Source: Fodinibius roseus (lineage in GTDB: Bacteria > Bacteroidota > Rhodothermia > Balneolales > Balneolaceae). Taken from it: a DNA stretch of 64,000 bases. The stretch lies in contig NZ_FQUS01000001.1 of NCBI RefSeq assembly GCF_900129315.1, forward strand, positions 248,001 to 312,000, written 5' to 3'. Numbering within the stretch: position 1 is the stretch's first letter; every line of letters starts with the position of its first letter. Positions 28,758-43,791 of this stretch are shown here, in pieces. The notes under the pieces are model-generated. The model made no database searches and had not been told where the DNA came from. It was given only the letters and a program-made list of their open reading frames with translations. Made by a program: the position numbers and the translations under genes.

Positions 28758-29384
28758 TCAGGATTGCTGTAGCGCTTTTCGGCAGGCGTCCAGGTCTTGT
28801 CGGGCAGGTTCATAATCGGGAGAAATTTCCAGGCACTGCTCAAAATATGAGATCGCCTCCTCATATTGTTCGATGTGTTTGAGCATGTAGCCGATATTGT
28901 TGTAGGCTTCGTAGAAATCCGGATTCAGCTCTATTGCTTTTTTGTAACAGTGTCCGGCTTCAACCGTATTGTTAGCGCGGAGGTGATGGTTCCCCAGGTT
29001 GAAGTAGCCCATCGCATCATCCGGTTTGATTTTGGTGATATGTTCAAAAAGCTCTTGTGCTTTTTCCGTCTCACCGGCCAGCTCATAGATATCGGCCAGG
29101 TTGTTCAGGGCGGGGACATAGTCGGGCTGAATATCGATCGCATCCAAATAGTGAGTGACTGCCCGTTCAATTTGATTGAGCTCAAAAAAAGTATTGGCGA
29201 GGTTGAAATGCGTTTTAAAGTTCCCGGGGTCGGCAGCGAGGGAACGCTGATAGGCTTCTGCAGCCTGGTCATATTCTCCCAGCATATGATAGCCGACGCC
29301 CAGTTCATTGAGCAAAGCTGCGTCGCCGGGCGATTCCCTGAGCTCTTCTTTTATCTCTGTAATCTGTTGTTCTATCTGCTCCAT
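28758..29384 (-). CDS. Tetratricopeptide repeat protein
   Basis: A 208-residue protein made of about five TPR units: ALLNELGVGYHMLGEYDQAA, THFNLANTFFELNQIERAV, ALNNLADIYELAGETEKAQ, GYFNLGNHHLRANNTVEAG and AYNNIGYMLKHIEQYEEAI. There is no signal peptide. It is the third gene on the btaA-btaB strand, 61 bases after btaB, and may be co-transcribed; a link to lipid synthesis is not shown by the sequence. Confidence 0.9.
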   Translation of the reverse strand: MEQIEQQITEIKEELRESPGDAALLNELGVGYHMLGEYDQAAEAYQRSLAADPGNFKTHFNLANTFFELNQIERAVTHYLDAIDIQPDYVPALNNLADIYELAGETEKAQELFEHITKIKPDDAMGYFNLGNHHLRANNTVEAGHCYKKAIELNPDFYEAYNNIGYMLKHIEQYEEAISYFEQCLEISPDYEPARQDLDACRKALQQS

Positions 29385-29445: not shown

Positions 29446-30075
29446 TTACGGTTTACCGATAAACTGGAAGTAGGTCCACAATCCCCAATAGGCTTTTTTG
29501 ACGGTAATGTCAGCCGGATGAAAATACTTTTTGAGCAAGGGTAAGAGGTGTCCGCTGAAGTTGACATGATTATACTCCATCCACCGTCTAAACCAGGCGA
29601 ACGGACTGGTATTAAAATCAACGACAGCGATATATCCATTCGGTTTCAGATCTTCCAAAAGGTGATTGAAGATAGGGTCTGTATGGGGACCAAACATCGT
29701 CAGCGAATAGGAAAGCAGGATCAGATCAAAAGAATTATAGTCAAAGCTATCGCCCTGGTAACGGCCCAGTTTCAGTTCTATCTGTGTCGAATGGTTAAGG
29801 CGTTCCCCGGCTTTTCTCAGCATTTCGGGCGAGAGGTCGAGTCCCGTTATCCGGGCATCGGGAAAATGAAATTCCAGTCGTTCCATATTAGTCCCGGTAC
29901 CACAACCTATTTCCAGGATTTGCGGCTGCGACGGCAGATCCGGGATCATATCGAGCAGGCCTGACCGCCCGAAGAGGAAACTCCAGCGGGTGGCATCGTA
30001 GAGAGGAGCATGAAATCGGTAGTATCGCTCTACTTCGGGTTCCCGGGTGGTATGGGAGGAGGCCGGGTCCATCAT
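29446..30075 (-). CDS. btaB: BtaB-like N-methyltransferase for betaine lipid
   Basis: A class I SAM methyltransferase of about 209 residues. Motif I is ILEIGCGTGTNMERL, followed by ITGLDLSPEMLRKA and DLILLSYSLTMFG. I chose ATG 30075 since it overlaps the btaA stop as ATGA; the longer frame to 30261 would run into btaA. Next to btaA the likely job is three-step N-methylation of diacylglyceryl-homoserine to the betaine lipid DGTS. On sequence alone it would be a generic methyltransferase, so the specific call rests on context. Confidence 0.8.
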   Translation of the reverse strand: MMDPASSHTTREPEVERYYRFHAPLYDATRWSFLFGRSGLLDMIPDLPSQPQILEIGCGTGTNMERLEFHFPDARITGLDLSPEMLRKAGERLNHSTQIELKLGRYQGDSFDYNSFDLILLSYSLTMFGPHTDPIFNHLLEDLKPNGYIAVVDFNTSPFAWFRRWMEYNHVNFSGHLLPLLKKYFHPADITVKKAYWGLWTYFQFIGKP

Positions 30076-31238
30076 TGTACGAGCCCCAGATGCGTGCTTT
30101 CGTAGGTTCCGACCCGGTCCCTGGCCTGGAGGCTGCTGGTCAGTTCCGGCTGGAAATAGACCCGGTCCCTGACAAAGGCGGGCAGAAAATCGACCGAGGT
30201 CCCGGCAGAACGAAATAATATGCGCGTACCGGCTTTGGAGTTGTCCAGGATGTACCGCCACTCGCGGGCAAGCAGCTCCGGTTTGGAGTTCGCCATCCAG
30301 TCCTGATGGTCAAGCAGTACAAAATGCGTATAGGGGCCGGGATGGTTCCTGAGAAATTGCAACAGGGTAGACGTATGCGTTTCAATCTTGTGTTCCCGCC
30401 TTCGCAGCAGCTGAAAATAATCTTTGCGCAGGTAGTTGGGACAACAGTCCCGCCGGTATGATCCTGTTAAATATACGCGCCAGAAATAGTTGTCATGAAT
30501 GGGACGCCGGGTGAATACGCGCCGCAGGGCTTGCTGAATAAAATCAAACATGCCCCCATCGTATTTTCGGGCAATAATATTACGCTGGGTTGCCGGGACG
30601 CCTATCATACTGGTGAGCGCATGCTGGCCTGCCAGCCATTTGTGAAAACCGTTCCAGAGCAGTGGCTCGATCTCATTAAAATAATAGGTTTGTTCTTTAA
30701 TAGTATGTGCATCAAGGAGTTTCCGTATTATTGAAGAGAGCCCCTTGCGTTGTATCCTCTTGTATATCAGCAGGGCAACCTTCCCTGACGTGCCATTGAA
30801 ATAAAAGCTCGGCTGGGTGGGGGAGGGAATGAAATAGTCGATATGGTTATCCCAGAACCGCCGGCTGGGAGAAGATAAAAAACACCTTAGGTTTTGACGG
30901 TAAATAAATGCTGCGCCTTCTCTTTTGCCCTCTCCGAGGAAATCCCATAAAAGAGAAAAGTCCCCGTTTTTGAAAAGCGATTGTTTCAGATCCATCAGTG
31001 CATTTTGTGCGGGATTGACGTCTACACAATGGATACGCTGAGGACCATCAAGCAGATAATCGAGCGCATTGCAACCGGCACTGGTGAGCATAACGACCCT
31101 GCTTTGCCGGTCGAGCTGCAGCATTTGGCGATCCAGTCGTGGATCCTCCCAGCAGGTATTATATACCAGATTATTGGATACAACTGTATTAAACAGCCAT
31201 TCCTGGAAATTTTCAGCTATGTTTGAGAGTTTTCTCAT
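30072..31238 (-). CDS. btaA: BtaA-like diacylglycerol 3-amino-3-carboxypropyl transferase
   Basis: A 388-residue DUF3419/BtaA protein. Diagnostic parts are NLVYNTCWEDPRLDRQML near the start, VVMLTSAGCNALDYLLDGP (SAM site), IHCVDVNPAQNALMDLK, and FVLLDHQDWM. BtaA moves the homoserine part of SAM onto diacylglycerol, the first step to the phosphorus-free lipid DGTS. With btaB it forms an ATGA-coupled pair. A three-repeat Pho-box-like site lies 35-62 bases upstream, which fits the known role of betaine lipids in phosphate saving. Confidence 0.88.
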   Translation of the reverse strand: MRKLSNIAENFQEWLFNTVVSNNLVYNTCWEDPRLDRQMLQLDRQSRVVMLTSAGCNALDYLLDGPQRIHCVDVNPAQNALMDLKQSLFKNGDFSLLWDFLGEGKREGAAFIYRQNLRCFLSSPSRRFWDNHIDYFIPSPTQPSFYFNGTSGKVALLIYKRIQRKGLSSIIRKLLDAHTIKEQTYYFNEIEPLLWNGFHKWLAGQHALTSMIGVPATQRNIIARKYDGGMFDFIQQALRRVFTRRPIHDNYFWRVYLTGSYRRDCCPNYLRKDYFQLLRRREHKIETHTSTLLQFLRNHPGPYTHFVLLDHQDWMANSKPELLAREWRYILDNSKAGTRILFRSAGTSVDFLPAFVRDRVYFQPELTSSLQARDRVGTYESTHLGLVQ

Positions 31239-31272
31239 TACCTTTTAATCTAAAGGACTGATATGTATCAGG

Positions 31273-31300
31273 TGTGAAAGAATTGTAATGTTATTGTAAA
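31273..31300 (-). promoter_or_regulatory. Pho-box-like site upstream of btaA
   Basis: Three hexamers repeat with exact 11-base spacing: TGTGAA (31273), TGTAAT (31284) and TGTAAA (31295). Read toward btaA they are TTTACA, ATTACA and TTCACA. PhoB/PhoP-type regulators bind direct repeats with an 11-base period, and TTNACA is the half-site of the Bacillus PhoP box. The site lies 35-62 bases before the btaA start. The match is by eye. Confidence 0.65.
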
Positions 31301-31474: not shown

Positions 31475-31702
31475 ATGGCTAATGATAACAAAAGCGATGC
31501 ATCGATGACGGAAGTAAAAACAGAGAAATATGAAAAGCTTATCGATCGATTGAAGGAGGAACGCAAGGCGGTGGAAAATATGCTGGATAAAGATTACCGG
31601 GAAGCACGCCGGTATGTCCGTTCACACCCGGAGGAGGGCGTATTTGCAGCTTTTGCAGGCGGTATTGCTTTGGGTTTTATCCTTGGAAGAATAAGTAAGT
31701 AA
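31475..31702 (+). CDS. Small DUF883/ElaB-like membrane-anchored protein
   Basis: A 75-residue protein: a charged helical part (KYEKLIDRLKEERKAVENML), then ARRYVRSHPEEGVFAAFAGG and one C-terminal membrane segment (GGIALGFILGRISK). The helix plus HPE...AAFAGGIALG tail is the pattern of ElaB/YqjD/DUF883 proteins, which tether to the inner membrane and can associate with ribosomes. It lies 34 bases before prfB. Confidence 0.7.
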   Translation: MANDNKSDASMTEVKTEKYEKLIDRLKEERKAVENMLDKDYREARRYVRSHPEEGVFAAFAGGIALGFILGRISK

Positions 31703-31736: not shown

Positions 31737-32871
31737 GTGGATTTAACGACGATTAATACCGATCATTTGAATGAATTGTTTGAGCGCGTGGATGCGCTCA
31801 GGGGGTATCTTTGACTATGATCAGCGAAAAGTTAGGATAATAGAGCTCCAGGAGCAGACGCAGGACCCCCATTTCTGGGACGATCCGGAAGAGGCTCGTC
31901 GCATTATGAAAAAACTGGATCATGAGAAGACCATGGTAGCTCAGTGGGATGAGCTGGATGAGCTTTGCGACAGCATCCAGGTATACCAGGAATTTCTGGA
32001 GGAAGGGGAAAATATCAGGGGAGAACTTGAAGAGGAAGCAAAAAGGCTTGAGCGTAAGCTTGAGGCCCTGGAACTGAAGAATATGCTTCGGGGCGAAGAT
32101 GACCACCGGGATGCCATTCTAACCTTTAACCCGGGGGCCGGGGGGACCGAAAGCCAGGACTGGGCCGAAATGCTGTACCGGATGTATACACGCTGGGCCA
32201 AGAAAAATGATTTTGAACTTTCAATTATCGAATACCAGGATGGCGATGTGGCCGGAATCAAAAGTGCGACAGTGGAAGTCAGCGGTGAGTTTGCTTATGG
32301 CTACCTGAAGGCGGAAAGCGGGGTGCACCGGCTGGTGCGCATCTCGCCGTTCGACAGTAACTCACGCCGCCATACCTCTTTTTGTTCCGTTTTTGTATCG
32401 CCCGTCATTGACGATACCATCGAAATAGATATCACCGAAAGCGATGTGGAACTGCAACGATTTCATTCCAGTGGGGCCGGGGGACAAAATGTAAATAAGG
32501 TGGAAACGGGGGTTCGCCTGATTTGGGAAGGGGAGCTTTCCGACGGATCCCGGGAGCGGGTCGTGGCCGAGTGCCAGCAGGAGCGCTCGCAGCTGCAGAA
32601 CCGCGAAAAGGCAATGGTACTGCTTAAGTCAAAGATCTATGAGCTGGAAAAGCAGATCAAGGAGCGTGAAAAACAGAAATTAGAGGACTCCAAGAGCAAA
32701 ATTGAGTGGGGGTCCCAGATCCGATCCTATGTCTTCCATCCCTATAATATGGTAAAAGATCATCGCACGGATTTTGAAACCTCCGACGTCGAGGGGGTGA
32801 TGGATGGGGAGATTGATGAGTTTATTAATGAATACCTGCTCTCCATCTCAGCCACGGATAGGACAGAATAA
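31737..32871 (+). CDS. prfB: Peptide chain release factor 2, programmed +1 frameshift
   Basis: RF2 reads UGA and UAA stop codons. The gene starts in one frame with GTG at 31737 (VDLTTINTDHLNELFERVDA, then LRGYL), meets an in-frame TGA at 31812-31814, and continues in the +1 frame from 31813 as DYDQRKVRIIELQ. The slip site is the classic CTT TGA C preceded by the SD-like AGGGGG at 31800-31805. So the correct product joins 31737-31811 with 31813-32871, about 377 residues; starting at ATG 31771 would give a wrong N-terminus. Functional parts are the stop-reading tripeptide SPF in RISPFDSN and the catalytic GGQ in SSGAGGQNVNKVETG. Its stop overlaps the coaE start by one base. Confidence 0.96.
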
Positions 32872-34722: not shown

Positions 34723-35472
34723 ATGAATTATAGCCGACGGAGTTTTTTGCGTAGTATAACAACCGCCACCCTGGGCGCTGCCGGAGCGTACTGGCTGCCT
34801 TCAACTACAGAAAAAAACGATGAGGAATTCTCCGCTATACCCCGGGATGGAATCATTCTCTTTCAGGGGGACTCCATCACCGACGCGGGACGGAATAGGA
34901 ATGACGAGGGACCCAATACGGGGTTGGGTGGGGGATACGCTTTTCTGGCGACGGCCGAACTCAGAAAATCGCTTGCCGCCCGAAACATAAGCTGTTATAA
35001 CCGGGGCATCAGCGGGAATAAAGTATTTCAACTGTCTGGACGATGGCAGGAGGACGCTCTTTCCCTGGCACCCGACCTGCTGAGTATACTGATAGGCGTT
35101 AATGATTACTGGCATACGCTGAATGATTATGACGGCACCGTTGAAGTGTATAAGCAGGATTTCAGAAAGTTGCTCAGGCGGACCAAAGAACAGCTACCGG
35201 AGGTCACCCTGGTGATCGGGGAGCCCTTTGTCGTGCTGGAAGGATCTTCCGTGAACAGGGAGCAGTGGATGCCTGACTTCAGAGCGTATCAAAAAGCGGC
35301 AAGGGAAATAGCCCGGGAGTTCGATGCCGGTTTTATTCCTTACCAGTCAGTCTTTGACGAGGCGTCCAAAGCAGTAGCCCCCACCTACTGGACGGCCGAT
35401 GGCGTGCACCCGACGCTGGCAGGCTCCCAGCTGATGGCCGAAGCATGGCTGCAAACCGTTAAACGCATGTGA
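34723..35472 (+). CDS. Tat-exported SGNH/GDSL hydrolase
   Basis: A 249-residue hydrolase with a twin-arginine signal (SRRSFLRSITTATLGAAGAY). The four SGNH blocks are visible: ILFQGDSITDAGR (Ser), NRGISGNKV (Gly), LIGVNDYW (Asn), and ADGVHPTLAG (Asp and His). Such enzymes are often deacetylases of carbohydrates or esterases; the substrate is not evident. It probably shares the fbp transcript by position only. Confidence 0.88.
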   Translation: MNYSRRSFLRSITTATLGAAGAYWLPSTTEKNDEEFSAIPRDGIILFQGDSITDAGRNRNDEGPNTGLGGGYAFLATAELRKSLAARNISCYNRGISGNKVFQLSGRWQEDALSLAPDLLSILIGVNDYWHTLNDYDGTVEVYKQDFRKLLRRTKEQLPEVTLVIGEPFVVLEGSSVNREQWMPDFRAYQKAAREIAREFDAGFIPYQSVFDEASKAVAPTYWTADGVHPTLAGSQLMAEAWLQTVKRM

Positions 35473-35481
35473 TCAGGCTGT

Positions 35482-35982
35482 TTAAAAATCCACCTTCATC
35501 CCTTCCTGGATATCGTGGGATACGCAATACCCGGCATTGGTTTCGATAACATACCGGGCGGGCTGTTCCGAGGTCAGGTTTTTTTCTGAAAAGGGCTGTG
35601 TGCTGTGGTGGATGCGAATAATCGTTTTATCGGCATTGACGAAGATAATATCCAGCGGGAGGGGGGTGTTGGCCATCCAAAAACTGCGGGGTTTATTTTC
35701 CTCGAAAATGAACAGCATTCCTTTGTCGGCAGGCAGTTCCTCAACATCCATTAATCCCTGGCTACGCTCTTCATCATCATCCGCAATAGCAGCCTCGATA
35801 GTTGAAACCGTATCTCCCGGGGCCGACAAAAAGGATATGGGTTGTACATAGTCGAGCGATCGGCTTCGAGGGGTATCGGCCGCGGCTTTTGAATGTGGTT
35901 TTTCCGAGGATTGGGAACAGGCCGCTGCCATTAACAGCATAGCAGCAGTGATAAGCATGTGCAGTGGTAACGCTTTTTTCAT
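35482..35982 (-). CDS. DUF192 family lipoprotein
   Basis: A 166-residue protein with a lipoprotein signal (LITAAMLLMAAAC). The DUF192 core includes EERSQGLMDVEELPADKGML, PRSFWMANTPLPLDIIFV and ARYVIETNAGYC. The family is widespread and its function is poorly understood. It is convergent with the SGNH hydrolase gene, with 9 bases between their stops. Confidence 0.88.
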   Translation of the reverse strand: MKKALPLHMLITAAMLLMAAACSQSSEKPHSKAAADTPRSRSLDYVQPISFLSAPGDTVSTIEAAIADDDEERSQGLMDVEELPADKGMLFIFEENKPRSFWMANTPLPLDIIFVNADKTIIRIHHSTQPFSEKNLTSEQPARYVIETNAGYCVSHDIQEGMKVDF

Positions 35983-43424: not shown

Positions 43425-43521
43425 ATATTGCATAGGATTACTGAATAACTTATCTTTGACCGCTATTAAGTTTATAAAAACGTGTACTTTGAAGTAAAGC
43501 AAATCAGAACACAATTATCAC

Positions 43522-43791
43522 ATGGCGATAACAAAAGAACGCAAAGAAGAAATTGTCGAAAAGTTTGGCGGATCCGGTAAAAATACAGGATCTTCGGAAG
43601 CTCAGATAGCTATTTTTACCGAGCGAATTAACGACTTGACGGAGCATCTTAAAGATCACAAGCAGGATCACGCTTCAAGGCGGGGATTGTTGAAGCTGGT
43701 AGGAAAGCGAAGAAAATTGCTAAACTATCTTAAGAAGAAAGATATTGAAAGATATCGTGAGCTTATTAGTGAGTTAGGAATTCGTAAGTAA
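43522..43791 (+). CDS. rpsO: 30S ribosomal protein S15
   Basis: An 89-residue protein binding the 16S rRNA central domain. Typical parts are [20 protein letters not shown]-like ([20 protein letters not shown]), [19 protein letters not shown], and [16 protein letters not shown]. It precedes pnp, the conserved rpsO-pnp order, with a terminator in between. Confidence 0.97.

Follow-up and report, generated by a model that had tools for sequence, protein, structure and literature searches.

A putative PhoB-type operator-promoter of four direct repeats upstream of the betaine-lipid genes btaAB in Fodinibius roseus

Among the systems closest to the one described here, Sinorhizobium meliloti switches on btaAB, and with it DGTS synthesis, through PhoB in phosphate starvation, as summarized in PMC3972451 (citing Geiger et al. 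1999). Control of this lipid pathway by PhoB is already known in Alphaproteobacteria, and an earlier note on this DNA had referred to Pho control of btaAB in other phyla. Pho boxes are also described at the type 1 plcP-btaAB clusters of Phaeobacter and other marine bacteria (PMC4796936). As regards the boxes themselves, PMC4415409 describes 11-nucleotide direct repeats that are bound in tandem in E. coli, with similar features in B. subtilis. Phosphate-responsive regulons in a neighbouring phylum provide a further likeness, these being the PhoB regulon of Bacteroides fragilis (PMC3547664) and the rise of plcP and a glycosyltransferase in phosphate-depleted Flavobacterium johnsoniae (PMC8115612), though the excerpts of these two accounts give neither a box sequence nor btaA. 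Likewise, in the portions of the open-licence literature that our search returned, there was no Pho box for Balneolota or Bacteroidota and there were no betaine lipids for Fodinibius. For the lipids of the genus, the description of Fodinibius alkaliphilus reports phosphatidylcholine together with unidentified aminolipids and glycolipids on thin-layer plates, using cells from MB medium (PMC12260241). The word "betaine" is missing from the main text of that description (PMC12260241), and, with phosphatidylcholine and unidentified aminolipids both present, DGTS could have been overlooked.

In the window (the whole stretch of 64,000 nucleotides of F. roseus DNA that was analysed), btaA lies at 30072..31238 on the minus strand and encodes a protein of 388 residues that matches PF11899 (DUF3419) with an E-value of 6.7e-105. 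The gene btaB (29446..30075, minus strand), which has a 4-base overlap with btaA, encodes a 209-residue homologue of SAM-dependent N-methyltransferases (PF13649, E 3.2e-17), with the name btaB being assigned from its position adjoining btaA. Together, these two are the predicted BtaA/BtaB combination of a DUF3419 protein and an adjacent SAM methyltransferase. No solved structure was found to be similar to BtaA by sequence at E 0.001. Within the order, btaA is present in 44 of 128 genomes, including all 12 of the genus (F. roseus among them), and the nearest named loci belong to Fodinibius salsisoli (65% identity) and F. halophilus (60% identity). Unlike in the Phaeobacter-type clusters, we recognised by eye no plcP in the open reading frames neighbouring F. 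roseus btaAB, which is transcribed divergently from prfB and from the gene of a small protein; in rhizobia, it is plcP that feeds diacylglycerol to BtaA. Several side observations concern these neighbours. Located 61 bases past btaB on the same strand is a gene for a TPR-repeat protein (28758-29384, minus strand), which is possibly a third member of the btaAB operon. The small protein divergent from btaA (31475-31699, plus strand) has 75 residues, a hydrophobic and glycine-rich C-terminus, and no Pfam family, and a divergent gene whose promoter carries a AAAGATACAAATTT-like block is found again, as judged by eye, 5' of many btaA loci. For prfB (release factor 2), a short GTG-start frame (31737-31815) ends by eye in GGG TAT CTT TGA C, presumably the classical RF2 +1 frameshift site, and the gene appears to continue from there into the frame at 31771-32871.

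Direct reading of the sequence places the 28-mer TTTACAATAACATTACAATTCTTTCACA at 31300..31273 of the minus strand. As the earlier note had stated, it holds three half-sites at exact 11-base steps, 62 to 35 bases 5' of the btaA ATG (minus strand), and all three were located: TTTACA (half-site 1, 31295..31300), ATTACA (half-site 2, 31284..31289), and TTCACA (half-site 3, 31273..31278). Moreover, two elements that the earlier note lacked lie further towards the gene. One is a fourth unit, TACATA (half-site 4, 31267..31262), that keeps the 11-base step, and the other is TAGATT (31252..31247), exactly 9 bases past half-site 4, which we take to be a TAnnTT element resembling the -7 element of Bacteroidota promoters and so the predicted -10 (-7) element of btaA. 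Thus, where a PHO box has at least two direct repeats at an 11-base step, the btaA site has four, and the start-proximal repeat sits just upstream of the -10 element; here, the E. coli spacing between PHO box and -10 element serves as the yardstick for the 9-base gap. When set beside S. meliloti and its relatives, the likeness is a PhoB-driven btaAB, which in F. roseus is a prediction only, while the differences are the phylum, the half-sites (TTNACA/TTCAYA versus the E. coli-like CTGTCAT type), and the Bacteroidota-like TAnnTT. With the Phaeobacter-type clusters, the locus shares a predicted Pho box in front of lipid-remodelling genes. The PhoP box of Bacillus subtilis is built on a TTAACA-type hexamer, and the btaA site resembles it in hexamer type and in the use of direct repeats, though it belongs to another phylum and another promoter type.

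To compare the site among relatives, we aligned 14 btaA promoters (L046-L059), which come from the 12 genomes of the genus and from two allied genera (G034 and G074). All 14 have half-sites 3 and 4 and, after the 9-base gap, TAnnTT. Half-site 3 reads TTCAYA in 13 promoters and TTTATA in the remaining one, half-site 4 reads TACAYA in every one, and these two are the most conserved units of the site. Half-sites 1 (TTWACA-like) and 2 are recognisable in 10 of the 14 and unrecognisable in G013, G018, G019, and G009. In fact, the half-sites carry a mean information of 1.36 bits per base versus 0.52 in the spacers, which differ among the 14 promoters. Altogether, btaA matches in 44 genomes yielded 30 loci that could be read (14 genomes gave no locus), and the 16 distant ones (L060-L075, from other genera of the family, 36-45% identity) had no triple at up to three mismatches, so the site is shown only for the genus and the two allied genera.

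Related repeats were found at the phosphate genes, before which the earlier note had expected the same pattern. This expectation largely held, with the pair present before pstS (12/12 genomes), the phoB-phoR-like operon (12/12), and glpQ (2/2 that have the gene). No tandem pair was seen at the alkaline phosphatases of F. roseus (G000), G015, and G016. The letters of the half-sites differ, being of the TTAACA type at pst and phoB and TTTACA/TTCAYA/TACAYA at btaA. In the pst operon, for which pstB, pstS, and phoU were matched by search and pstC and pstA recognised from place and sequence, a motif kindred to a PHO box precedes pstS. Outside F. roseus, all 11 genomes of the genus have it as TTAAYA N5 TTAACA N20 TAnnTT. 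In F. roseus, it is TTAACA N5 TTAATA N20 TATATT, 268 bases before the gene (L010:8460-8520, G000:C15), and the orthologous place holds the degenerate pair ATACTA N5 TTAACA. With the relocated pair in full register and the orthologous one degenerate, the pst operator of F. roseus has apparently been turned over. The distance from TTAACA to TAnnTT at pstS equals that from half-site 3 to TAnnTT at btaA; since 20 is 9 plus 11, the pstS pairs stand in the same register to TAnnTT as btaA units 2 and 3. At pst, spacers and half-sites are equally well conserved (1.22 and 1.24 bits), so conservation alone does not mark out the units there. A second pstS-like gene in G010 (L088) had no pair. The regulator's own operon likewise has a kindred pair in all 12 genomes, with the strict pattern ATAACA N5 TTAAYR matching in 11 and GTAACA N5 TTAACA recognised by eye in the twelfth. 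This pair is not in the 9/20/31 register to TAnnTT, and most of these promoters have an element resembling TAGTATT or TACTATT 32 bases further along. As for glpQ (PF03009, E 1e-20 or better), it was found in just 2 of the 12 genomes, and in both the pair lies 31 bases (9+22) before TATATT. In one of them, G009, glpQ is followed by a phoA-like alkaline phosphatase gene, forming a glpQ-phoA gene pair.

An unbiased scan of the 12 genomes for exact WTAACA N5 TTAAYA gave 84 matches, all inspected by script, versus 61 for the reversed pattern. Nineteen of the 84 lie before phosphate genes (10 before phoB, seven before pstS, and two before glpQ), which is about the excess of 23 over the reversed pattern. 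TAnnTT follows at exactly 20 bases in seven pairs, every one of them at pstS. Five have it 31 bases on, comprising the two at glpQ and three that show no phosphate link and were not counted as Pho sites: two in F. roseus that fall within or across other frames (C23, antisense to a gene, and C34, at the end of an ankyrin-like frame) and one in G015, which stands before a sigma-factor-like gene. Also not counted were the single pair at 9 bases (G014), for which the stretch read showed no gene on the same strand, and a G015 pair before another OmpR-type regulator (L212). Alkaline phosphatase (PF00245) is encoded in five of the 12 genomes. There is no tandem pair in the upstream regions of those in G000, G015, and G016, the pair at the phoA of G013 is in phase but weak (ATAACA N5 TTAAAA N20 TACTTT), and the phoA of G009 is located behind glpQ.

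The candidate regulator is an OmpR-family response regulator at G000:C34:8002-8685, which, with about 238 bits (237.6-238.1), is the best PhoB match of the F. roseus genome and has both the receiver and the winged-helix domains. It scores below the PhoB equivalog cut-off (238.1 versus 296.2 bits), a threshold passed in just two of 14 control genomes, and judged by its sequence it is PhoB-like. Adjoining it is a PnpS/PhoR-like kinase that is also below the equivalog cut-offs (264 versus 400 for PnpS and 243 versus 334.2 for PhoR).

Could the btaA site have arisen by chance? In the 5.08-Mb genome, TTTACAATAACATTACAATTCTTTCACA has its only exact match here, and when TTWACA N5 WTTACA N5 TTWACA is searched genome-wide with up to three mismatches, the btaA site is the best (one mismatch), with the next ones having two. 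What could speak for chance is that this degenerate triple is not clearly enriched, with 52 sites in the whole genome versus 46 when the pattern is reversed; on its own, it is therefore no proof. Fifteen of these 52 were inspected; five fall in reading frames of at least 100 residues, and the rest precede either no gene or genes with no visible phosphate link, and all were taken as chance matches. Across the genus, the literal triple is not enriched either (seven matches versus 10 reversed), with four of the seven being btaA. With three TT[ACT]ACA units at 11-base steps and at most one mismatch in total, none of 3000 dinucleotide shuffles of the 210-base btaA upstream region (both strands) qualified, nor did any of 1028 genome tiles, these being overlapping, mostly non-coding, 210-base pieces from twenty 20-kb stretches of the F. 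roseus genome. When three units were scored with a half-site matrix built solely from the pst and phoB promoters of other genomes, the btaA score was reached by eight of the 3000 shuffles and by none of the 1028 tiles. Over 928,000 positions (the stretches plus the window, coding included), three others score at least as high as the btaA triple with this matrix: one in L144 and two in the window, 43506-43533 (plus strand) and 35457-35484 (minus strand), both of which outscore it. Applied to the 14 btaA regions, the matrix put its best triple at the site in nine; in L059 that triple kept the register but lay one step upstream, and in L054, L055, L057, and L058 it lay away from the site. A two-unit pst/phoB model does not single out btaA, with the best regional pair being elsewhere and 42 background positions scoring as high, because the btaA letters differ from the pst/phoB type. 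Judged from these scores, the evidence for the btaA site resides in three or four units jointly, and with the fixed spacing conserved in 14 of 14 promoters and the shuffles so seldom reaching the site, a chance resemblance is scarcely credible.

A less far-fetched, though still very improbable, explanation is that of an ordinary constitutive promoter, in which unit 3 would serve as the -35 hexamer, with the remainder being no more than an A+T-rich flank. TTCACA does resemble TTGACA, 20 bases separate its end from TAnnTT, near the -33/-7 element spacing of Bacteroidota promoters, and units 3 and 4 are the most conserved. Yet among 21 other TAnnTTTG candidates before F. roseus genes, a small set that may include false promoters, none has TTNACA or TTNAYA at that distance; moreover, units 1 and 2, at exact 11-base steps in 10 of the 14 promoters, would be superfluous for a -35 element, and the pair recurs before phosphate genes. 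Somewhat more plausible, but still unlikely, is that the four repeats bind some other OmpR-family regulator, responding to envelope or osmotic stress, and that btaAB is not phosphate-controlled. Eight full-length regulators of this family in the genome match the PhoB model over almost all of its length, and the half-site letters at btaA are unlike those at pst and phoB. Moreover, a genus-wide search for units 2-4 plus TAnnTT at up to two mismatches gave 16 matches and none for the reversed pattern, of which nine are at btaA, five at mnmA-like genes, and one each at an acetyl-CoA hydrolase-like and a phoH-like gene, the latter three kinds being our naming by eye (for mnmA, from the full reading frame in three cases and identical start letters in the other two). 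These five congeners (L099, L100, L101, L103, and L104) have TTCAYA N5 TACATA N9 TAnnTT, with units 3-4 and the same 9-base spacing, before their mnmA-like genes, so a promoter with units 3-4 alone may be of a type without phosphate specificity. Against another regulator, the btaA site has the 11-base step, the TTNACA-like units, and the TAnnTT register in common with pst and glpQ, and the three-unit pst/phoB matrix recognises it.

Our preferred reading, to which we give a probability of roughly 0.82, is that the site upstream of btaA is a PhoB-type operator-promoter for the btaAB operon. In this mechanism, phosphate starvation would lead to phosphorylation of the C34 regulator, and the phosphorylated PhoB-like protein would bind, as two dimers in head-to-tail arrangement, to the four 11-base direct repeats. 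Because the start-proximal repeat ends 9 bases before TAnnTT, PhoB bound there would cover the -35 region and bring in RNA polymerase, thereby activating btaAB. BtaA and BtaB, once induced, would convert diacylglycerol to the phosphorus-free betaine lipid DGTS, sparing phospholipid. A wider proposal, for which we see the odds as evenly balanced, is that Balneolota have a Pho box of their own, with TTNACA/TTCAYA half-sites at 11-base steps and the last strong unit 9, 20, or 31 bases (9+11k) before TAnnTT, so that PhoB would act from successive helical turns. Betaine-lipid synthesis of the genus would then belong to that regulon through its most complete, four-unit operator, and the pst operator of F. 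roseus would have moved to a new upstream promoter with its register kept.

Although PhoB control of DGTS synthesis has precedents, the operator layout at btaA is possibly new. It would provide a concrete Pho-box definition for a phylum with none in the open-licence literature found, and it predicts a phosphate-driven exchange of phospholipid for betaine lipid in halophilic bacteria of soils and salterns. For the salt-loving F. roseus itself, the prediction is that DGTS is produced under phosphate control, and that the membrane lipids would be swapped when phosphate is short.
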